Shown piece by piece: positions 2,215 to 32,520 of a stretch of DNA of 64,000 nt. Every line of letters begins with the position of its first letter. Positions within the stretch are counted from its first letter, which is position 1. The stretch lies in the NCBI GenBank assembly GCA_016125185.1, contig WGMG01000001.1, forward strand, positions 372,001-436,000. The letters are read 5' to 3'. Under the pieces are notes generated by a model. It did no database searches. It had not been told where the DNA came from and worked only from the letters and a program-made list of their open reading frames with translations. The translations under genes and the position numbers were made by a program. This DNA comes from Armatimonadota bacterium. Lineage in GTDB: Bacteria; Armatimonadota; Fimbriimonadia; Fimbriimonadales; Fimbriimonadaceae.

Positions 2215-4035
2215 TTACTTTGCCACATCGATGAACTGGCTGACCGACTCCGCATCGCTGAATCCGAATCCGATGGTGTACTGATTTCCGGGATATCGCT
2301 TTGGCACCGCCTTTTGAATGACTTGATTGCCCTCACGAAGTTCTCGGCCATAGTCAATCAGGCCGTCAAAGAAGTGAGAGTGGAGCGTGACTCTCATAGA
2401 CCTAAGCTCACTCGGCGCGACACCGGCAGAAACAATTGTCTTTGCCATGCCATAACTGCAAGAACCGGATTCCGAAAGCATCTTTACGATCGTGTCAATG
2501 GCTGCCTGTTGCTGGTCGGTTCCAAGGGTTGCAATGGCGAGGCCATCATCGGCCGAGGCGGCCGCCATTTGGTTGGAAGTTAGCTGGGACAAGAACCGTA
2601 GGGCATCATACGAGTTAGCAACGCCAAAGGCATCAAAGGTTGTTAGAGGATAATCCACTTCTTCATTGGTGAGTTGATCTTCACGAAAACTGCCTGCGAC
2701 CTGAATGAAGAAATTGAGGTCGTGGGGTGTATTCACCGACTCGAATTTTGACCATTGCGCTTCCGAGGCTTCGTGCCGTCGATGAGTCCAATACCGAAAG
2801 TTCCTCGCCAAGAAGAAGCCTGAATCTTCCTTGCAAAACGTCTTGTTGTCCTCGACCAACTTTTGAATGTAGGTCTTCGCGTCAGGATAATTGCGATTCA
2901 GTTGCACCCAATTCGTGGTGCAACTCCGATCGGCTTGAGCGACAACCGGGATTCCTGTCGCAAGGTGAAACCACCGCAAATGATCCCCCAATCTTCGCTT
3001 CATCGAGGACCAAGGAGAGGGCCAAATCTTTGTACTCGCGTCGAGCTTCTGTGGAAATTTCTCGGCGACGTCCTGCACGTGGGTCCAAGGTTCTAAGTCT
3101 TCGTAGAAAGGAAGTTTCTTGAGTGTCCCGGGGACGCCCTCATTAAAGGTCTTTGCCGAGAACACTCCATTCGTATGGCTGGCACCGGGATTGCCCTTCA
3201 TGCCAGGATAGACTCCGTAGGAATTGAAGCTTGCCCGGATGTCGCCGGTAGCCGGACGATATCGCACAATCTCAAAGACCAAAGGCGTCACCTTTCGAGG
3301 ATTCCCATCGGCGTCCGTAATGGTGAAGTAGGAGGATTGGTCTTGATCAGCTGGATCGAGTTTGAGCCCCGGGCCGGGCATGGTGCTTGCGACCAACGGT
3401 TCTCCTTTCCAAAATTGTTCTTTCTGGGCATCGCTGAGCCGCAAAAAGACTCTTCCAAGGCCAGTCATGTAGCCATCGCCGATCGTTCGAGATGCAGCCA
3501 AGTACTGCCTGTTGGCCTCCTCCAACCTTGTGGGATCATTGGCCTTCGTGGCTGCTTCAAGTTCGTTCTCGAAAGGATCCAGGAGCTCGAACTTCCTTCT
3601 CGGTGGGAGCAATCCAAATCGCTTATCAGAATTTGGATCAGGCGGCGTATTCTTGGCGGCATATTCGCAAGCTGAGATCAGCGCTTCGGAGTATTTCTTC
3701 GACAATTCATCTTCAGCCAAGTTGAAGACCTTTTCGTGGTTTGCCTTCGGGATGTCCATTTCCAGCCGGTATCCGTTACCGTCTTGCACCCACTGACAAT
3801 CAAGGACTTTGGCGACCTCGTCCATAACCGATGAAAGCGACTTCTTTTCAACAAAAAGGTCCACCTTTAGGTCCGAAATATTGCGATTGACCTTAAGCGG
3901 GACGTGGGACATCGCCGAGAATTCGTTGCACACGTCCGTGATCTGCACCAGGCTCTTATCGAGATCAACAACCTCTTTCAATCGACTATCGGTAAGAATG
4001 GATGCCTGAACGAGAAGAGCGATAGTCACGATCAT
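2215..4035 (-). CDS. Secreted protein of unknown family, tandem copy A
   Basis: A 606-residue protein with a short N-terminal hydrophobic segment (MIVTIALLVQAS). Residues ~28-95 resemble the STN domain (short N-terminal fold of secretins and TonB receptors): LKVDLFVEKKSL then VLDCQWV and a YRLEMD strand. A second conserved block near 335-375 has WPSPW, RRLGDHLRWFH and GIPVVAQADR. There is no predicted barrel or secretin domain. It is paralogous to the genes at 4137 and 6553 and nearest in sequence to the 4137 copy. It appears less GC-rich than its siblings. Likely exported to the periplasm or cell surface; function unknown. Confidence 0.8.
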   Translation of the reverse strand: MIVTIALLVQASILTDSRLKEVVDLDKSLVQITDVCNEFSAMSHVPLKVNRNISDLKVDLFVEKKSLSSVMDEVAKVLDCQWVQDGNGYRLEMDIPKANHEKVFNLAEDELSKKYSEALISACEYAAKNTPPDPNSDKRFGLLPPRRKFELLDPFENELEAATKANDPTRLEEANRQYLAASRTIGDGYMTGLGRVFLRLSDAQKEQFWKGEPLVASTMPGPGLKLDPADQDQSSYFTITDADGNPRKVTPLVFEIVRYRPATGDIRASFNSYGVYPGMKGNPGASHTNGVFSAKTFNEGVPGTLKKLPFYEDLEPWTHVQDVAEKFPQKLDASTKIWPSPWSSMKRRLGDHLRWFHLATGIPVVAQADRSCTTNWVQLNRNYPDAKTYIQKLVEDNKTFCKEDSGFFLARNFRYWTHRRHEASEAQWSKFESVNTPHDLNFFIQVAGSFREDQLTNEEVDYPLTTFDAFGVANSYDALRFLSQLTSNQMAAASADDGLAIATLGTDQQQAAIDTIVKMLSESGSCSYGMAKTIVSAGVAPSELRSMRVTLHSHFFDGLIDYGRELREGNQVIQKAVPKRYPGNQYTIGFGFSDAESVSQFIDVAK

Positions 4036-4136
4036 GATGTTTGATAATCCGGCTGATGCCGAATGCCCGAAATATTATAGGGGAGAAAACAGTACTTGAC
4101 GAAGTCCCGTAACCAGGGCTTTGGGAAAGTTCCGCG

Positions 4137-5975
4137 TTACTTGGGCTTGAAGAGCGTCAGGAACTGGCCGACGGTTTCCTTCTCGCCCAGGGCAAATGTA
4201 AAGCTAATTTGCGTCGCCGGACGCTTTTCCTGGCTCCGGGCTGAAACAACCGCGTCGCCGTCCTTGATTTCGTCTTGGTAGTCCACATAATCCTTGTGCT
4301 CCGTCTCGGTGACCTTAAAGGTCATCTGCCGGAGGGTGGTGGGCTCCAGGCCGCGCGCGATCAGCGCCTTCGCCATCTCGTACGAGCAACTGCCGTTCTC
4401 GACGATGAGATTCAGGACCGTCGACTGCATGAGTTGAATCTGTACGGGGTCGAGCATGTCCGCCGAAAGCCCGCCTTTGTCGCGGGCGGCGTCCCGCTGC
4501 GACTTCGAGAGCGAAGCGTAAAACTTCAGCGAATCGTAGCCCGTGAGCACACGATCCACGCCCACGGTGTTGACCGGATAGCCGATGAACTCGTTGCCCA
4601 TTTGGTCCCTTCGCAACAGACCGGCGATCTTGACCGCCTCATCGAAAGTCATTGGAACCTTGGCGTCGTGATCCTCGATCCGCCGCCAAGCCGACTCGGA
4701 CGCTTCGTAAGCTCGATGCGACCAGAACCGGAAGTTGCGGGCCACCAGATATCCATTGTCAGCGCGGCAATAGGTGTCGGAGTCAGCCATCATCGCCTTC
4801 AGGTATTCGCCCGCGGTTTTGTAACCCCGCTCGAGGTTGATCCAATTCCAGAGGCAGCTTCGGTCCGCTTGGGCCACAACCGGAATGCCGGTGGCGAGGT
4901 GGAACCACCGCAAGTGGTCGCCTAACCGCCGACGATGGTTGGACCACGGCGAGGGCCAGGATTTCGTCTTGGTGTCGATCGACTGAGGAAAGCCTTTCTC
5001 GACCGCGTCCTGGTCCATCCAGGGCTCCAGGTCTTGGTAGAAAGGCATCTTCTTCAGGAAGTCCGCGATGGGCAGGTTGGAAGACGAGCCGCTGAACGGG
5101 CCGCTCATCTTGGCCGACGAAGCGCCCCCGCCGAACTCCTTGGGGTACGCGGCGTAGACGTTCATGCTGCACCGCAGCATGCCGGACGCGGGGTCGTAGC
5201 GGATGATATCGAAAAGGTCCTGTTCCACCCGGTGTTGTTGGCCGTCAGCCCCGATAAAGGAGGCGTTGATGAGGGTGGTGGAGTCGGACCGATACAGTTT
5301 GTATTGGGAACCGGGAAAGGTGCTCGCCGCCACTGGCTCGCCCTTCCAGAATCGGTCCATCGCTGACCGATCCATCTGAAGCAGGATTCGGCCGATGGCC
5401 GTCGTTTGTGGGTTGCCAGCCGCCGCCGACATCGCGGCGTAATCGTCGTAAGCCCGCTGGGTCGCTGCCGCGTCGGTTCCTTTCTGGGCATCTTCGTATG
5501 CCTTTTGGTAGGGGTTTAGAAGGCGATTTCGATCTTCGGCCGACATCATTCCCATGCCGAGGGGCACGGTCTCGTTCGACGTCGGCGTCGCCTTCGCGCA
5601 CTTTTGGTAGATGTTCAGAGCCGCCAAAATCATCTGCCGGTCCTCGTCCTCCTCAGCTTTGATGAAGTTGCGCTCGCGGTTGGTAGTCGGGATATCCATC
5701 TCCAGCCGGTAGCCAGCCTCCGACGGGGTCCATACGCAGTTGAGGGCCTTCGCCACTTTATCGAGCGTTTCTCGCAAAGGGCGGTTCTCGACGAAGACGT
5801 CGACCTTTAGGTCGGCGATGTGGGAATCAACTTTCAGCGTCACGCCCGACTGCTGTGTGGCCTGGGCGCAGAAGTCGGTGATTTGGGTCAGGCTGTCGTC
5901 AAAGTCGCTCTTGGCGGCCAGTCGGTTGTCGGTCAGAAGCGTGGTTTGAAGAAGGACAGTAAGCGCAAGAACCAT
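4137..5975 (-). CDS. Secreted protein of unknown family, tandem copy B
   Basis: A 612-residue paralogue of copy A. The N-terminal hydrophobic segment MVLALTVLLQTTLL is followed by the STN-like unit (LKVDVFVENRPL, ALNCVWT, YRLEMD) at about 30-96. The middle carries a Tyr/Ala-rich helical region. The conserved block with WPSPW, RRLGDHLRWFH and GIPVVAQADR lies near 340-378, and then a GYLVARNFRFWSHR segment. On the minus strand a TACTAT hexamer lies 13 nt before the start. It is separated by 101 nt from copy A. No catalytic motif is recognised; the repeated STN-like architecture suggests a binding or scaffold role (inference). Confidence 0.8.
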   Translation of the reverse strand: MVLALTVLLQTTLLTDNRLAAKSDFDDSLTQITDFCAQATQQSGVTLKVDSHIADLKVDVFVENRPLRETLDKVAKALNCVWTPSEAGYRLEMDIPTTNRERNFIKAEEDEDRQMILAALNIYQKCAKATPTSNETVPLGMGMMSAEDRNRLLNPYQKAYEDAQKGTDAAATQRAYDDYAAMSAAAGNPQTTAIGRILLQMDRSAMDRFWKGEPVAASTFPGSQYKLYRSDSTTLINASFIGADGQQHRVEQDLFDIIRYDPASGMLRCSMNVYAAYPKEFGGGASSAKMSGPFSGSSSNLPIADFLKKMPFYQDLEPWMDQDAVEKGFPQSIDTKTKSWPSPWSNHRRRLGDHLRWFHLATGIPVVAQADRSCLWNWINLERGYKTAGEYLKAMMADSDTYCRADNGYLVARNFRFWSHRAYEASESAWRRIEDHDAKVPMTFDEAVKIAGLLRRDQMGNEFIGYPVNTVGVDRVLTGYDSLKFYASLSKSQRDAARDKGGLSADMLDPVQIQLMQSTVLNLIVENGSCSYEMAKALIARGLEPTTLRQMTFKVTETEHKDYVDYQDEIKDGDAVVSARSQEKRPATQISFTFALGEKETVGQFLTLFKPK

Positions 5976-6003
5976 TCGGTGAACCCCGATAGTACGACGA
6001 CGT

Positions 6004-6510
6004 TCACGCGAAAAATCTTTCAGAAAATCCGTCGGTTCGGATACTTTCGTAATCGTGCCCGCAGTCGGCCGCCCAAGCGCACCAGAAAATCAGCGGCTCG
6101 TCGCCGGTGTTCACGGTCCGATGGGCAAGGGTTCCGTCGATGTGATACGTGACACCCGGCCGCAGTTTGACCGTGGTCGTCTTCCGCTCATGGTCCATCA
6201 GAACCACCAGCCCTTGGCCCGACACGACGAGGATCAGTTCGCCGTGAGTCGGCTTGGTGTGCCAGTGGCCACGAGTCATGAAGTACTCGCCGCCGACGGT
6301 GCCGGGGTGGAGCGTGGTCGAACCCCAAAGGATCGCCCCTTCGGTGCCGTCCGGCTTGGAAAAGTAGGTCTCCGTCTCGTACAGGGGCGTGGAAGCCATC
6401 GCCTGCGCCGCGTCTCTATCGCCCCAGTATTCGAGAAGGTCGCCGACGGTCCGCGCGGACCGAGAAACCTCTCCGGTCATTGTCCCGGAGAGGATATCGG
6501 TTGTGATCAT
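6004..6510 (-). CDS. pgi: Cupin-type glucose-6-phosphate isomerase
   Basis: Interconverts glucose 6-phosphate and fructose 6-phosphate in the cytoplasm. This is the metal-dependent cupin class first known from archaea, unrelated to the classical bacterial enzyme. The 168-residue length fits a single cupin barrel. Metal ligands can be read as His82 and His84 in GHWHTK, Glu91 in HGELIL and His130 in LAHRTVN. The gene lies between secreted-protein copies B and C on the same strand, 28 nt upstream of B and 42 nt downstream of C. It has its own -10-like TAGAGT 7 nt before the ATG. Nothing links it functionally to the secreted family. Confidence 0.8.
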   Translation of the reverse strand: MITTDILSGTMTGEVSRSARTVGDLLEYWGDRDAAQAMASTPLYETETYFSKPDGTEGAILWGSTTLHPGTVGGEYFMTRGHWHTKPTHGELILVVSGQGLVVLMDHERKTTTVKLRPGVTYHIDGTLAHRTVNTGDEPLIFWCAWAADCGHDYESIRTDGFSERFFA

Positions 6511-6517
6511 GACAGAT

Positions 6518-6523
6518 ACTCTA
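6518..6523 (-). promoter_or_regulatory. Candidate -10 box for cupin isomerase
   Basis: TAGAGT on the minus strand, 7 nt before the ATG at 6510, no Shine-Dalgarno between; leaderless arrangement. Confidence 0.4.
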
Positions 6524-6552
6524 CCGCGCTCTGCGGCTCAGATTTGCGCGGC

Positions 6553-8328
6553 TCAGATCTGCTCGGACATGAAGGTCACGACCTTCTCGCCGTCGTATCC
6601 GAACTCGTAGTGAATCGTTCCGCAGACCTTTTCATTGCCGGGATCGACGACAATCTGCTCGCCGAGGTCCTGCACCGTCACCGGTTGGTTGATCACCTTC
6701 ATCTTCATGGTGCTCATGTGAAATCGCATCGCGTTCAATGACTGCGAATCGTAGCCGTCATAGATGAACGAATCCATGAGCGACTCGCTGACGAACCCTT
6801 GGTCCCCAATACCGTTGACGATTGCGGCTTCAAAAAGGCCCTGTTGCCGTTGGCTCAGTCGATTGAACGACAGTCCGCCTGGCCTGTTGGCCTGGCCAAG
6901 TTCACCATCATCCAGCGTAGCCACCAACTGAAGGGCGGGGAATGTCTGCGCGAATTCACGCCGAGAGAATTGCACGACCACTCCATCACGATCCTGCACC
7001 AGCATGGCTTGCAACGGATTCAATTTCGAGCTAAACGCGACGTATCGATCCATCTTCGACTCGTTGCCTCGCTGTGGGTTTTCGACGATGGCGTAAGTGG
7101 ATTCTGGGATTTCGTTCAGCTCTTTCCGCCAATAAATTCCATCGCGCACGAGCAGGAAGTCGCCGCTTCGGTGGGCATAACCCTTGCAGGCGGCAAGTAA
7201 CGAGGTGAGGTACTGCCCCTCCGTCGCCGAATGGCGATTCTGCCTGACGAAGGGATGCACGGTTCGGTCGGCCATCGCGACCACAGGTACGCCACTCATC
7301 CGGTGGAACCAGCGCAGGTGGTCGCCTAGTCGGTACCGCCCGTTGTCCCACGGCGAATCGAAGTTTGCCTTCTCGGCGCTTTTCTCGTCGATCTTGGTTG
7401 GGAACATGTCGTCGAGCGCGGAAAATTGATCCCACCGCTTCAGACTCGCGGCGAAGCTGAGCCCATCGAGCTCCTTCGGCATGTCGTCGAACGGATAGTG
7501 CCCAGGTGGCTCTCCAGAAATGATCCGCTGGTTCGGCGTGAATGTAAAGTCTTTCTTGCCGATGCGCTTGGTCGCTGGATCGACGCAGGTGAAGAGCACG
7601 TACTTACCGTCCACATTGGGCCGCGATGGGTCGAGGTCGCCCAGGGAGAACGCGAATTTGGCTTTGGTGACCGACGACACAATGAACGGCAGACCGGCCT
7701 TGTAGGCCCGAATGTCGCCCTCCGACATTTGCGAGAATAATCGGGCGAGCTCCAGGTTGGCGGTGCCCGATGCGATCTCTTCGAGCGCACGAACGCGGAT
7801 ATCGAGCGGTTCCAGCTCCGCGTCCGAGGCGTTGTCCGCCCGGGCTTTGGCCAGTTGGGCCTGAGCCTTTTTGAGGTCGCCTTTGTAGAGATTGAATCGG
7901 TCGGGATCGTTGATCCGCTCGTCGGAAGGCGGCACGATTCGCGCAATCTCCCGGTACACCGTAATCATGCGATCGAGGTTTTGGGTCGCGAGCTTGTCTT
8001 CGGCCGAAACGTACTGCCGCGCCTCAGCGTCGGCTTGGTCGTCGCCGACCAGCTGGTAGCCGTCGGCGCCGCGAACCCACTGAAGGTTGCACGCCTCGGC
8101 GACCTTCGCCAGGGTCTGGTTCAGGGGCTCGTCATCGACGAAGACGTCGATCTTGAGGTCCTTGATGGACGGGGAACAGGAAAACTGGATGCCCGATGCC
8201 TTTTCGGCGTTCTGAAGCAGACTCCGAATCGGCATCAGCGGTGCATCGATACTGGTCGGCTTGGTCAACCGAACATCGCTCGAAATGGAGTCCTGCGTCG
8301 CGAGGAGGATCAGCGAAAGGAGGCTCAT
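6553..8328 (-). CDS. Secreted protein of unknown family, tandem copy C
   Basis: A 591-residue, more divergent paralogue of copies A and B. The N-terminus (MSLLSLILLATQDS) is a short export signal. The STN-like unit lies at about 30-95 (LKIDVFVDDEPL, ACNLQWV, YQLVGDD). The middle block is kept in altered form: SPW, YRLGDHLRWFH and GVPVVAMADR near 325-362, followed by GDFLLVRDGIYWRKE. The change from IPVVAQADR to VPVVAMADR and loss of the WP before SPW separate it from A and B. A TATGAT box lies 9 nt before the ATG. It is first of the three in transcription order. Function unknown. Confidence 0.8.
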   Translation of the reverse strand: MSLLSLILLATQDSISSDVRLTKPTSIDAPLMPIRSLLQNAEKASGIQFSCSPSIKDLKIDVFVDDEPLNQTLAKVAEACNLQWVRGADGYQLVGDDQADAEARQYVSAEDKLATQNLDRMITVYREIARIVPPSDERINDPDRFNLYKGDLKKAQAQLAKARADNASDAELEPLDIRVRALEEIASGTANLELARLFSQMSEGDIRAYKAGLPFIVSSVTKAKFAFSLGDLDPSRPNVDGKYVLFTCVDPATKRIGKKDFTFTPNQRIISGEPPGHYPFDDMPKELDGLSFAASLKRWDQFSALDDMFPTKIDEKSAEKANFDSPWDNGRYRLGDHLRWFHRMSGVPVVAMADRTVHPFVRQNRHSATEGQYLTSLLAACKGYAHRSGDFLLVRDGIYWRKELNEIPESTYAIVENPQRGNESKMDRYVAFSSKLNPLQAMLVQDRDGVVVQFSRREFAQTFPALQLVATLDDGELGQANRPGGLSFNRLSQRQQGLFEAAIVNGIGDQGFVSESLMDSFIYDGYDSQSLNAMRFHMSTMKMKVINQPVTVQDLGEQIVVDPGNEKVCGTIHYEFGYDGEKVVTFMSEQI

Positions 8329-27915: not shown

Positions 27916-28650
27916 ATGAACCGAGGAATCTACACCGGGGCACGGGGAATGATGACCACCACGCAGTGGATGGACGTGATTTCCAACAACCTTGCCAACT
28001 CTGGAACCGACGGATACAAGGCCGACACGCTGGCGTTTACCGACGTCATGATGAAGAACCTTTACGCCAACGGCGGAAAGGGCGTCTATCTCGGAAGCAT
28101 CGGCAACGGCCCCGCCGCAACCGCCAACTCCATCGACCGAAGCGTCGGCACGATCCGCACGACGGGCAATGCGCTCGATGTGGCTCTCCGCACGCCGCAG
28201 GGCATGTTTGCGGTTCAGATGAACGGCCAAACCTACTACACCCGCAACGGCTCGTTCAGCCTCGACTCCGCTGGCCACTTGGTCACCAACCAGGGCCTTC
28301 CGGTTCTGGACACCAAAGGCTCCCCGATCACGATCACCGGCAAGGGCAAGGTGATGATCGACGAGCAGGGCCTGGTTCACCAGGGCGATAACGTCGTGGC
28401 CCAGATCGGCATCTACGAATCCGACTTTGCAAAGGCTGGACTCAATCTCTGGACTGCCGGCACGCAGACCCCTCAGCCGGTCGCAAACCCGGAGCTCGCA
28501 ACTAACTCGCTGGAAGCCAGCAACGTCGAGCCCATCCAGGCGATGGTGGACCTCATCAAGGTCCAGCGCTCCTTTGAAGAATCTCAGCGGTCGATCCAAA
28601 CCCAGGACGACATGACCGGAAAGCTCTTCGAAATCTTGAATCGACACTAA
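27916..28650 (+). CDS. flgF: Flagellar rod protein, FlgF-like
   Basis: Axial protein of the proximal rod, secreted by the flagellar export apparatus. The 244-residue protein has the N-terminal signature MDVISNNLANSGTDGYK and the C-terminal heptad helix QAMVDLIKVQRSFEESQRSI, which pack as coiled coils in the rod core, with a middle FlgG-type fold (MFAVQMNGQTYYTRNGSFSL). It opens the operon, just before flgG. Several FlgE/F/G paralogues are alike; I call it FlgF from its length and position. Gram-positive FlhO/FlhP-type naming is an alternative. Confidence 0.85.
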   Translation: MNRGIYTGARGMMTTTQWMDVISNNLANSGTDGYKADTLAFTDVMMKNLYANGGKGVYLGSIGNGPAATANSIDRSVGTIRTTGNALDVALRTPQGMFAVQMNGQTYYTRNGSFSLDSAGHLVTNQGLPVLDTKGSPITITGKGKVMIDEQGLVHQGDNVVAQIGIYESDFAKAGLNLWTAGTQTPQPVANPELATNSLEASNVEPIQAMVDLIKVQRSFEESQRSIQTQDDMTGKLFEILNRH

Positions 28651-28729: not shown

Positions 28730-29518
28730 ATGTTAAGATCGCTCAATACTTCGGCAACCGGAATGGTTGCGCAACAATTTAACCTGGACGTTATCTCGAA
28801 CAACCTCGCGAACGTCAACACGACTGGTTTCAAACACCAGCGGGCCGAGTTTCACGACTTGGTGTATCAGACGGTTCAATCCGCTGGTACCTCGGTCGGT
28901 CAGAACTTCAAAACGCCGGGTGGCGTTCAGTTCGGTCTTGGTTCGATGGTTTCCGCCACCGCCAACGACCTCTCGCAGGGCGCATCCCTCAGCACCGGTA
29001 ACCCGCTCGACCTCATGATCGTCGGCGAAGGTTACTTCCGCGTGCTCAAGCCGGACGGCAGTTTCGGATACACCCGCGATGGCAGTTTCAAGAAGGACGC
29101 GACCGGTCTGCTGGTAAACAGCAACGGCTACCCGCTCGTCCCCCAGATCACGATTCCCGAGGGAGCGACTCAGGTGAATATTGGTCAGGACGGCACGGTC
29201 GAGGCCATGATTCCGGGCAACTCGACGCCGACACGGCTCGATCAGATTACTTTGGCGATGTTCGCCAACCCCGCCGGTCTCACCCGAGCTGGCGAGAACC
29301 TGTGGGTGGAGAGTGCGGCCAGCGGCGCGCCAAACCTCATTGCCCCCGGCACCGATGGAGCGGGTACGGTCTCCGCCGGGTATCTGGAAGGATCCAACGT
29401 TTCGGTTGTCGAAGAGATGGTTCGAATGATCACTGCGCAACGCGCCTATGAGATCAACTCGAAAGCCATCCAGACCTCAGACGACATGCTGTCGATTCTG
29501 AACACGCTGAAGAGGTAA
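28730..29518 (+). CDS. flgG: Flagellar distal rod protein FlgG
   Basis: Distal rod subunit that passes through the P and L rings. The 262-residue protein, the standard length, carries LDVISNNLANVNTTGFK near the N-terminus and MVRMITAQRAYEINSKAIQ at the C-terminus. The middle domain (YFRVLKPDGSFGYTRDGSF, then GENLW) is the template for the extra module found at the front of the next gene. A 3-nt gap separates the stop from that gene's ATG, so expression is coupled. Confidence 0.93.
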   Translation: MLRSLNTSATGMVAQQFNLDVISNNLANVNTTGFKHQRAEFHDLVYQTVQSAGTSVGQNFKTPGGVQFGLGSMVSATANDLSQGASLSTGNPLDLMIVGEGYFRVLKPDGSFGYTRDGSFKKDATGLLVNSNGYPLVPQITIPEGATQVNIGQDGTVEAMIPGNSTPTRLDQITLAMFANPAGLTRAGENLWVESAASGAPNLIAPGTDGAGTVSAGYLEGSNVSVVEEMVRMITAQRAYEINSKAIQTSDDMLSILNTLKR

Positions 29519-29521
29519 GCC

Positions 29522-30712
29522 ATGATCGGTAGCATTCTCGCACTCATGGTTGGGGGAACGGTCCCCACTGTCACCGTTCGAATCGAAGGCGACGGCTTCT
29601 TCCGCTTCGCCAAAGACAATCAGATGTTTTACGGCCGCGTGGCCCAGCTTTCGGCCACGCCGCAGGGCCTCATGGCCAAAGATGGCTCCTTATTGGTGCC
29701 CCGCCTGGTGGCGCCGGAAGGCACGACCAAGCTGGAAGTCAGCATGGACGGCAACATCACCGCGGTTCTGGCTAACGGAAGCAAGCACCTCGGCCGCTTT
29801 GTCATCGCCATTTTCGAAACCCCGCCGAAGTTCAATCACGTGGGCAACTACGTGACCACCGACTCCCGCCCGACGCTGACCAGCCCGGGTGAATGGATCG
29901 CCGGTGTGATCCGAACGAACGGCACCGCAACAACGGCTCCGATCGACACCAAGACGACCGAGGGAAGCACGACGACGACCACGCCGAAAACGGCTGGTAA
30001 CAACTCCGCGAGCGAAAAGTTTGTGCCGGGAACGACCGAGATCAAGGTCAATCTTCACTCGGAGATCACGTCCGAGCACATCTTGCTCGGCGATATCGCC
30101 ACGATCGAAGGCGACCCGGAAGTCAAAGAGAAGCTGAGCGTGGTCGACTTTGGTCGAGCCCCGATCTACGGCGCAAAGCGGGGCCTCACCGTCCTGCACG
30201 TCCGGGCCAACATTTTGGCCGCCAAGATCGATACCCGAAACATCAAGATCATCTGCCCCGAAGGTGCAACGGTCGAGCGCAAGAGCCAAAAGGTCGAGCC
30301 GACTGCGATCTCCGATGCCGTCGCCAAGGCGATCAAGGTGAAGTTCGGCTTCGAGACCCAGCTTCAAGAGAAGAATCGGCTGACGACCCTCAGCGTTCCC
30401 GATGGAGAGGTGACGATTAGCGTCTCCCAGCTTAACCTGAACAACACCGAAATTAGCGGTATGGTCGATGTCCTCGTGGATGGCAAGTCCGCAGGCACCG
30501 TCCGCATCGGCTACGACCTGCCCGCCCTTTCGATGGTCAAGCGCGGCGATGTGGTTCGCCTTCGCCTGATCTCCAATTTTGCCACCGTCGAGGTCAACGC
30601 CAAGGCGACGACCAACGGCTATCTCGGCCAGAGCATAACCGTCGAAACCGACAACGGCACGACCCACACCGGCACCCTCATCGGCTCCGGAATCGTGGAG
30701 GTGAAACTATGA
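29522..30712 (+). CDS. flgA: FlgG-like module fused to FlgA (P-ring chaperone)
   Basis: A 396-residue protein of two parts. Residues ~15-125 align with the middle domain of the upstream FlgG: EGDGFFRFAKDNQMFYGRVA corresponds to EGYFRVLKPDGSFGYTRDGS, and later LLVPRLVAPEGTTKLEVSMDG to PLVPQITIPEGATQVNIGQDG. A Thr-rich linker (GSTTTTTPKT) follows. Residues ~170-396 match FlgA, the periplasmic chaperone for FlgI, with the SAF-type domain and a terminal GYLGQSITV block. The N-terminus has only a weak hydrophobic start (MIGSILALMVGG). Ordinary FlgA proteins are 130-250 residues and lack the first module. The stop overlaps flgH (ATGA). Confidence 0.85.
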   Translation: MIGSILALMVGGTVPTVTVRIEGDGFFRFAKDNQMFYGRVAQLSATPQGLMAKDGSLLVPRLVAPEGTTKLEVSMDGNITAVLANGSKHLGRFVIAIFETPPKFNHVGNYVTTDSRPTLTSPGEWIAGVIRTNGTATTAPIDTKTTEGSTTTTTPKTAGNNSASEKFVPGTTEIKVNLHSEITSEHILLGDIATIEGDPEVKEKLSVVDFGRAPIYGAKRGLTVLHVRANILAAKIDTRNIKIICPEGATVERKSQKVEPTAISDAVAKAIKVKFGFETQLQEKNRLTTLSVPDGEVTISVSQLNLNNTEISGMVDVLVDGKSAGTVRIGYDLPALSMVKRGDVVRLRLISNFATVEVNAKATTNGYLGQSITVETDNGTTHTGTLIGSGIVEVKL

Positions 30713-31326
30713 AACTGACGTCCATCTTCGCCCTCGCACTGACTTCGGTGGCCTTCGGCCAGCAGGTAGATTCGCAGGACAACTTCGGCTCTCTGACGCC
30801 GAAGAGGTACAACTCGCCGTTCCTGGCTCGAACCGCCCGGCACGTGGGCGATCCGCTGACGGTCATCATCAGCGAGTCGAACATCTCCTCGTACCAGTCG
30901 AACATGCAGAACAACAAGAAGGAGACCGTCACCAACGGCCCGAACAGCGTTCCGCTCGTCGATTGGCTGAAGGTTGGCCTGCTTTCGTCGCTGACCGGCA
31001 GTTCCAGCTCCAGCACGGATCAACAGTTCCAAACCACGGGGCAGAACTCTCAACGCGGCACCATGACGGCCAAGGTTTCCGTCCTCATCAAGCAGATTCT
31101 TCCGAACGGCACGCTGGTGGTCGAAGGGACCCGAGCCGTGAAGTTCGGTCGCGAGACTCAGCATCTAACCCTCAGCGGCATCTGCCGAGTTGATGACATC
31201 CGAACGGACAATACGCTTCTCAGCGAGAACCTCGCCAATGCCGAAATCAAGAGTGAAGGCATCGGAGCGATCTACAAGAAGCAGCGACAAGGCTTCATCT
31301 CGAAGCTCTTGGGGTGGTTGTTCTAA
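30709..31326 (+). CDS. flgH: Flagellar L-ring protein FlgH, without lipobox
   Basis: Forms the outer-membrane L ring around the distal rod, so the cell has an outer membrane. Length is 205 residues. The family core is visible: RHVGDPLTVIISESN, GTMTAKVSVLIKQILPNGTL, VEGTR and TLSGICRVDDI. The N-terminus MKLTSIFALALTSVAFGQQ is a signal peptide but has no Cys at the cleavage site, whereas enterobacterial FlgH is a lipoprotein. Anchoring must therefore differ. The next gene starts directly after the stop. Confidence 0.93.
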   Translation: MKLTSIFALALTSVAFGQQVDSQDNFGSLTPKRYNSPFLARTARHVGDPLTVIISESNISSYQSNMQNNKKETVTNGPNSVPLVDWLKVGLLSSLTGSSSSSTDQQFQTTGQNSQRGTMTAKVSVLIKQILPNGTLVVEGTRAVKFGRETQHLTLSGICRVDDIRTDNTLLSENLANAEIKSEGIGAIYKKQRQGFISKLLGWLF

Positions 31327-32520
31327 ATGAAACTCCTTTCCATCGCAACGCTTTTGCTGACTGCGAGCATGGTTTTTGCCCAGGCTGGACCTCCTTCCGG
31401 TGGCGGCGACACCAAGCCGACACGCATCACGGACGAGATGTCCCGCCGCATGTCCAACATGCGACAGGCCGAAAGCAACGGCATCAGCGTCCGCATTAAG
31501 GACATCGCCCGGTTCCGCGGCATCCGCTCCAACTCCCTCATGGGTATTGGTGTAGTGGTCGGCCTTAAGGGCACTGGCGACACGCGAAAGAACCCGCAGA
31601 GTGCGGCGGCCATCGCCAACTATATGAAGTCGATGGGGCAATCCGTCGATCCGACGCTCATCGAACCGAAGAACTGCGCTCTCGTATTTGTCCGCGCCGA
31701 GCTTCCCCCGTTCGCCACGAACGGCCAAGAACTTGACCTCACGGTCGCATCGGCTGGTGACGCGCTCAGCTTGCAGGGAGGACTCCTCCTTCGCACCGAG
31801 CTGTACGCCGTCGGAGACAACGAAACGGTTTACGCCATCGGCGAAGGCTCCATCAGCATCGGTGGGTACGGCGCTTCGTCGGGTGGCAGCAGCAAGTCGG
31901 TTGGCTTCCTCACCGCGGGCCGAGTCCCCAGCGGCGGCGTGGTCGAGCAAGGCGCGCCGACGAAACTGGTCTACAGCGGCAAGATGTACCTCGAACTGAT
32001 GGATGCCGACCTCACGACGGCTAACCGAGTTCAGGACGAAATCAACAAGAAGTATCCCGAGTTCAACGCCATGGCGGAGAACGGCGGCACCATCGGCGTT
32101 TCGCTCCCGACCACTATGTCTCCGGTTCAGGCGATGTCCAAGCTGGAAGAGCTGAACGTCCTGGTCGACAATGCGGCCGTGGTCGTCATTAACGAAAAGA
32201 CCGGCGCGATCGCCATCGGCGGAAACGTCCGCATCGCTCCCGTCGCCATCGCCAGCGGCTCCATCAGCGTCAAGATCGAGGAATCGACGAGTGTGTCCCA
32301 GCCGAATCCGTTCGCTCAGGGCACGACCACGCCGGTCACGAACCAGAAGGTCTCGGCCGATCAAGGCGAAGCCGACATTGCGGTCATGGCTCCGAATACG
32401 ACCGTCGCCGACCTGGCCCGCATCTTCCAAGAGTTGCGTCTCAAGTCCAGCGACATCATCAATATCCTTCAGATCCTGCGTCAGCAGGGCGCCCTCAAGG
32501 CAAGGCTGGTGATCCAGTGA
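31327..32520 (+). CDS. flgI: Flagellar P-ring protein FlgI
   Basis: Periplasmic P-ring subunit, 397 residues including a signal peptide (MKLLSIATLLLTASMVFAQ). Family markers include ISVRIKDIARFRGIRSNSL, GIGVVVGLKGTGD and VVVINEKTGAIAIGGNVRI. A Gly-Ser-rich insertion (GGYGASSGGSSKS) in the middle is typical. FlgA, two genes upstream, should chaperone it. The stop overlaps the GTG start of flgJ. Confidence 0.95.
   Translation: MKLLSIATLLLTASMVFAQAGPPSGGGDTKPTRITDEMSRRMSNMRQAESNGISVRIKDIARFRGIRSNSLMGIGVVVGLKGTGDTRKNPQSAAAIANYMKSMGQSVDPTLIEPKNCALVFVRAELPPFATNGQELDLTVASAGDALSLQGGLLLRTELYAVGDNETVYAIGEGSISIGGYGASSGGSSKSVGFLTAGRVPSGGVVEQGAPTKLVYSGKMYLELMDADLTTANRVQDEINKKYPEFNAMAENGGTIGVSLPTTMSPVQAMSKLEELNVLVDNAAVVVINEKTGAIAIGGNVRIAPVAIASGSISVKIEESTSVSQPNPFAQGTTTPVTNQKVSADQGEADIAVMAPNTTVADLARIFQELRLKSSDIINILQILRQQGALKARLVIQ

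Follow-up and report, generated by a model that had tools for sequence, protein, structure and literature searches.

The product of the open reading frame at 29522-30712 in the window, the 64,000-nucleotide stretch of an Armatimonadota contig analyzed here, is a FlgA-type P-ring chaperone that carries a complete FlgG D1 domain between its N terminus and its FlgA core. This fusion is neither local nor recent: it arose once, in the ancestor of three GTDB families of one order (Fimbriimonadales), was lost at least twice afterwards, and has otherwise been retained by selection across the order. A literature search returned no earlier account of a FlgA-FlgG D1 fusion. Our tentative reading, to which we assign a probability of about 0.42, is that FlgA gained D1 once from flgG and that D1 acts as an address tag, releasing FlgI at the rod. 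The main study of FlgA found that its D3 domain binds FlgI and described the sorting of FlgI to the rod as unknown (PMC4895218); the fusion names a candidate partner, which is either the rod or FlgI. If true, an address tag would explain in physical terms how FlgI finds the rod in this order.

The gene lies in a flagellar cluster with the order flgF, flgG, fused flgA, flgH, flgI, a rod-binding FlgJ-like gene, and flgN (assigned by Pfam), followed by FlgK-like, FlgL-like, and FliW-like genes that were named by eye from sequence. The fused gene and its nearest neighbors are as follows.

27916-28650, plus strand: flgF-like proximal rod gene (TIGR02490, E 2.5e-49, slightly below cut-off)
28730-29518, plus strand: flgG, intact, with a D1 homologous to the fused module (TIGR02488, E 1.5e-103)
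29522-30712, plus strand: flgA-type gene carrying an inserted D1 domain of FlgG, 396 amino acids (open reading frame, Pfam, AlphaFold model, homologues)
30709-31326, plus strand: flgH, L-ring (PF02107, E 1.8e-36)
31327-32520, plus strand: flgI, P-ring, the presumed client of the chaperone (PF02119, E 1.5e-101)

In the window the fused reading frame begins in the frame of flgG, one codon past the flgG stop, and the last codons of flgG (AAGAGG) probably provide its ribosome-binding site. Programmed read-through from flgG was rejected, since the frame of the fused gene relative to flgG differs between relatives. An assembly or frameshift artifact was also rejected, given that the fusion is present in 70 genomes of the family, with full-length matches free of internal stops.

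The fused protein divides into the following segments.

29522-29566, plus strand: short hydrophobic N terminus without lysine or arginine, residues 1-15 (MIGSILALMVGGTVP), a probable Sec signal peptide (hydrophobic stretch in relatives)
29567-29914, plus strand: FlgG D1-like domain, residues 16-131 (PF22692, BLASTP to FlgG, VIA-align Z 17.0, dN/dS)
29915-30031, plus strand: Thr-rich linker, about residues 132-170 (low pLDDT, low identity, higher dN/dS)
30032-30286, plus strand: N-terminal domain of the FlgA part, resembling D0 of the Thermotoga protein, residues 171-255 (model matches to 3g74 and 3frn)
30287-30529, plus strand: FlgA D1-like domain, residues 256-336, with no SAF domain (D2) after it (D3 comes next in the model)
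30530-30709, plus strand: FlgA D3, which binds FlgI in Salmonella, residues 337-396 (3vjp; C-terminal half of PF13144)

Profile searches place both halves of the protein. Residues 21-81 match PF22692, the D1 domain of FlgE, FlgF, and FlgG, at E 9e-8 and above the Pfam gathering score, and residues 330-394 match the C-terminal half only of PF13144 (ChapFlgA; E 3e-6, 27.6 bits against a cut-off of 23.8). The best D1 profile match is the NCBIfam FlgG model (E 6e-10; FlgF, 1e-4), and BLASTP aligns residues 1-143 with the adjacent FlgG over 118 columns at 30% identity (E 1e-12), bearing out the resemblance noted from the sequence. The sequence-only reading had taken the first 110 or so residues as FlgG-like; the block at about 16-131 is indeed homologous, but residues 1-15 are hydrophobic and resemble a signal peptide. 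It was right that the coiled-coil ends of an axial protein are missing and that a Thr-rich linker joins the FlgG D1 module to FlgA: Pfam finds neither PF00460 nor PF06429, the N- and C-terminal rod segments, in the fusion, whereas the adjacent FlgG has both.

An AlphaFold2 model built on 29 aligned sequences has two confident parts joined by an unstructured linker (mean pLDDT, 86.6; about 90-95 in the D1 and FlgA parts; below 50 at residues 135-139 and 142-169). Its pTM of only 0.48 is what a flexible linker between two domains would lead one to expect. The predicted structure of the N-terminal part, on which the sequence-only reading had staked its claim, has the fold of FlgG D1: model residues 16-139 superpose on FlgG 92-222 with Z 17.0 and rmsd 2.0 over 123 residues, and Foldseek agrees on the FlgG match (E about 1e-6 to 1e-4). 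In a second-look fold search a single domain takes up much of the hit list, so families absent from it carry no meaning. The protein has the entire D1 in common with the Salmonella distal rod protein FlgG (7cbm, 6jf2; Z at most 17.0, rmsd of about 2 over 123 residues). In the FlgA portion, residues 167-256 match 3g74 (Z 9.9), the model from residue 171 onward matches Thermotoga FlgA 3frn (Z 8.7, rmsd 9.8), and residues 337-396 match D3 of Salmonella FlgA (3vjp 139-198; Z 11.7, rmsd 1.3 over 60 residues). The protein shares with FlgA of Salmonella (3tee, 3vjp) and Thermotoga (3frn) the D3 fold, the D0- and D1-like domains, adjacency to flgH-flgI, and an occurrence tied to FlgI. It differs from them in the FlgG D1, the short N terminus without basic residues, the missing SAF-type D2, and a score below the cut-off of the NCBIfam flgA_cterm equivalog TIGR03170 (33.9 against 54.65 bits, with model positions 73-136 of 137 matched).

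The sequence-only reading had described the C-terminal part as a normal FlgA domain, and here it does not hold. Salmonella FlgA consists of D1, an antifreeze-like D2, and D3, and D2 has been proposed to target peptidoglycan (PMC4895218). In other classes of Armatimonadota the SAF match falls precisely at the gap of about 62 residues in the FlgA of this order, and no SAF match was found among the order's scanned proteins (families f1-f5; loci L053-L067 and L073-L092). The first half of TIGR03170, where other FlgA proteins have SAF, is unmatched in the fused protein, SAF itself is not matched there, and the model leaves no residues for such a domain. Families f3 and f5 have neither SAF nor D1. 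Loss of SAF probably preceded the gain of D1, and the idea that D1 is a required replacement for SAF is not supported, given the two families that lack both.

The survey for the fusion covered genomes and metagenome assemblies of this phylum, plus plasmids; the plasmid search returned only one FlgG. This survey of FlgA architectures, a check that had been proposed from the sequence, located the fusion in three families. It is present in 70 of the 72 FlgA-bearing genomes of the Fimbriimonadaceae; the two unfused ones, G002 and G003, belong to the genus of the fused G001. Five of the six such genomes in the sister family f2 have it (exception, G156), as does the single one in family f4, and unfused FlgA occurs in families f3 and f5 and in other classes. 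FlgI (PF02119) and FlgA share genomes, genome by genome, with two exceptions that are incomplete assemblies (G036 and G058); G007-G009 and others lack both.

Related loci were collected with a query from the FlgI tail. In the D1 tree all 26 fused copies group together (100/98), separate from the 35 FlgG and 8 FlgF sequences, and a single origin follows from this grouping of all sampled fused D1 domains. Recent local duplication of, or gene conversion with, flgG was rejected on the same tree. The FlgI tree, standing in for a species tree, requires three changes; with the fused D1 domains in a single clade, these are most simply read as one gain and two losses. The FlgA proteins of G003 (locus L092) and G156 (L058) are without D1, have canonical signal peptides, and are nested inside fused clades, and are secondary losses. 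Separate flgA genes, which together with a frameshift in the fused gene would have refuted the sequence-only reading, exist in relatives as losses of the domain, and there is no such frameshift. Its suggestion that part of flgG was duplicated and fused to flgA agrees with the D1 tree and the adjacency of flgG: since the best profile is that of FlgG rather than FlgF and flgG lies directly upstream, a partial duplication of the adjacent gene is the likely source.

Strong purifying selection acts on D1, which by identity is the most conserved part of the protein. Across five pairs, dN/dS was 0.04-0.13 for D1, 0.03-0.10 for the FlgA part, and 0.10-0.47 for the linker; dS is saturated in the two more divergent pairs, which carry little weight. 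On average, pairs of sequences were 38% identical in D1, 26-35% in the FlgA domains, and 18% in the linker.

A hydrophobic N-terminal stretch is found in all 29 aligned relatives. Lysine and arginine are absent from positions 2-7 in 26 of the 29 fused proteins; canonical signal peptides occur in a few relatives. The N termini of fused FlgA differ in this from those of FlgH and FlgI encoded in the same operons, and almost every FlgI from the sampled loci has K or R at positions 2-7. From these features the fused chaperone is likely exported to the periplasm by Sec. Either D1 was inserted behind an existing signal peptide, or D1 gained a new signal.

The fused D1 has kept its structural glycines and prolines and has lost the FlgG-invariant YTRDG, NPxGL, and GxN positions, a loss expected if D1 stopped packing in the rod lattice. 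Mean net charge is about -6 in FlgG D1 and about +1 in fused D1, and the fused domain is more positive than the FlgG D1 of the same genome in 26 of 26 cases, which are relatives and not independent events. The fused clade typically has basic residues at positions 28, 34, 92, and 116, which FlgG has less often, 116 being mostly acidic there; R28 is conserved at 96% in the fused clade. The fusion thus differs from FlgG in lacking the Flg_bb_rod and Flg_bbr_C segments and the invariant D1 motifs, in not being acidic, and in its probable export, judged from its N terminus, by Sec rather than by the flagellar type III route.

The rod surface is strongly acidic, and FlgI Lys63 and Lys95, which face it, have been proposed as the residues through which FlgI first touches the rod (PMC8298488); Salmonella FlgG Asp154 faces the LP ring. 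With residue mapping verified on Escherichia coli FlgI and FlgG, the acids equivalent to Salmonella FlgG Asp109 and Asp154 are partly retained in fused D1, the latter as D or E in 21 of 26 fused domains versus 14 of 35 FlgG proteins of sampled phylum members. At the FlgI Lys63 equivalent, 24 of 25 fused genomes have a basic residue. The Lys95 equivalent is Leu in the window (FlgI residue 147) and is nonbasic in 8 of 25 fused versus 0 of 14 unfused genomes, counts that ignore kinship.

In the proposed mechanism, the fused chaperone would enter the periplasm through Sec and, by analogy with Salmonella, would hold FlgI with D3. Tethered by the flexible linker, the FlgG-like D1 might then bind the acidic FlgG rod weakly as an address tag, and FlgI would be released where the rod crosses peptidoglycan, this last being the least supported step. 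That a periplasmic chaperone guides P-ring subunits to the rod through a repurposed rod-protein domain, exported by Sec and acting in trans, is a proposal we hold at somewhat under even odds. A neutral-to-basic, tethered D1 would suit weak docking on an acidic rod better than it would suit a copy of the rod surface presented to FlgI, and the charge data weakly favor docking. However, FlgG may be acidic because it serves as a bearing surface, the charge shift of D1 could be mere release from constraint, and without the FlgG contact motifs D1 may bind nothing on the rod. The atypical N terminus also counts against docking, as do the two lineages that dropped D1 and kept FlgA and FlgI, which show D1 to be dispensable.

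D1 might instead be a decoy for the rod, covering the rod-facing surface of FlgI, blocking early ring closure, and being displaced at the real rod. The known partner of FlgA is FlgI (PMC4895218), and both the basic Lys63 equivalent and the acid at the Asp154 position, commoner in fused D1 than in FlgG, would fit such a contact. We nevertheless consider it unlikely: with its net charge inverted, D1 does not imitate the overall acidic surface of the rod, the Lys95 equivalent is so often nonbasic, and D/G turns are frequent for structural reasons. It is about equally doubtful that D1 is a spacer or stabilizing domain without a specific rod partner, perhaps in place of the lost SAF. The absence from the whole order's FlgA of a domain proposed to target peptidoglycan (PMC4895218) speaks for this, as do two losses of D1 with FlgI kept, but f3 and f5 show that D1 is not a required substitute, and residues conserved specifically in the clade, such as R28, suggest more than a spacer. 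Retention of the FlgG D1 fold would also allow D1 to be an extra subunit in the rod lattice or at its tip, holding FlgA there, a role made very improbable by the missing terminal rod helices and the lost motifs. Least credible of all is a functionless relic, which would sit easily with two losses but hardly with the low dN/dS, the highest conservation of any domain, and retention across three families. Genomes G001, with the domain, and G003, without it, are a matched natural pair.

Several other features of these loci were observed. In FlgI of the window's family (f1 loci L073-L092), the signal peptide and the ring core are separated by a variable N-terminal extension of roughly 25-60 residues, about residues 19-54 in the window, which often ends in a conserved E-x-x-G-[VI]-x-V; f3, f5, and other classes have a short extension or none. 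Most sampled f3 loci (L061-L064, L066, and L067) have no flgG or flgF beside flgA-flgH-flgI; in L065 flgG is adjacent. An open frame of 421 amino acids on the minus strand at 31165-32430, antisense to flgI, is probably a by-product of codon use. At 2215-8328, also on the minus strand, three successive open reading frames of about 600 amino acids each have similar N termini and are perhaps a tandem paralogue family.
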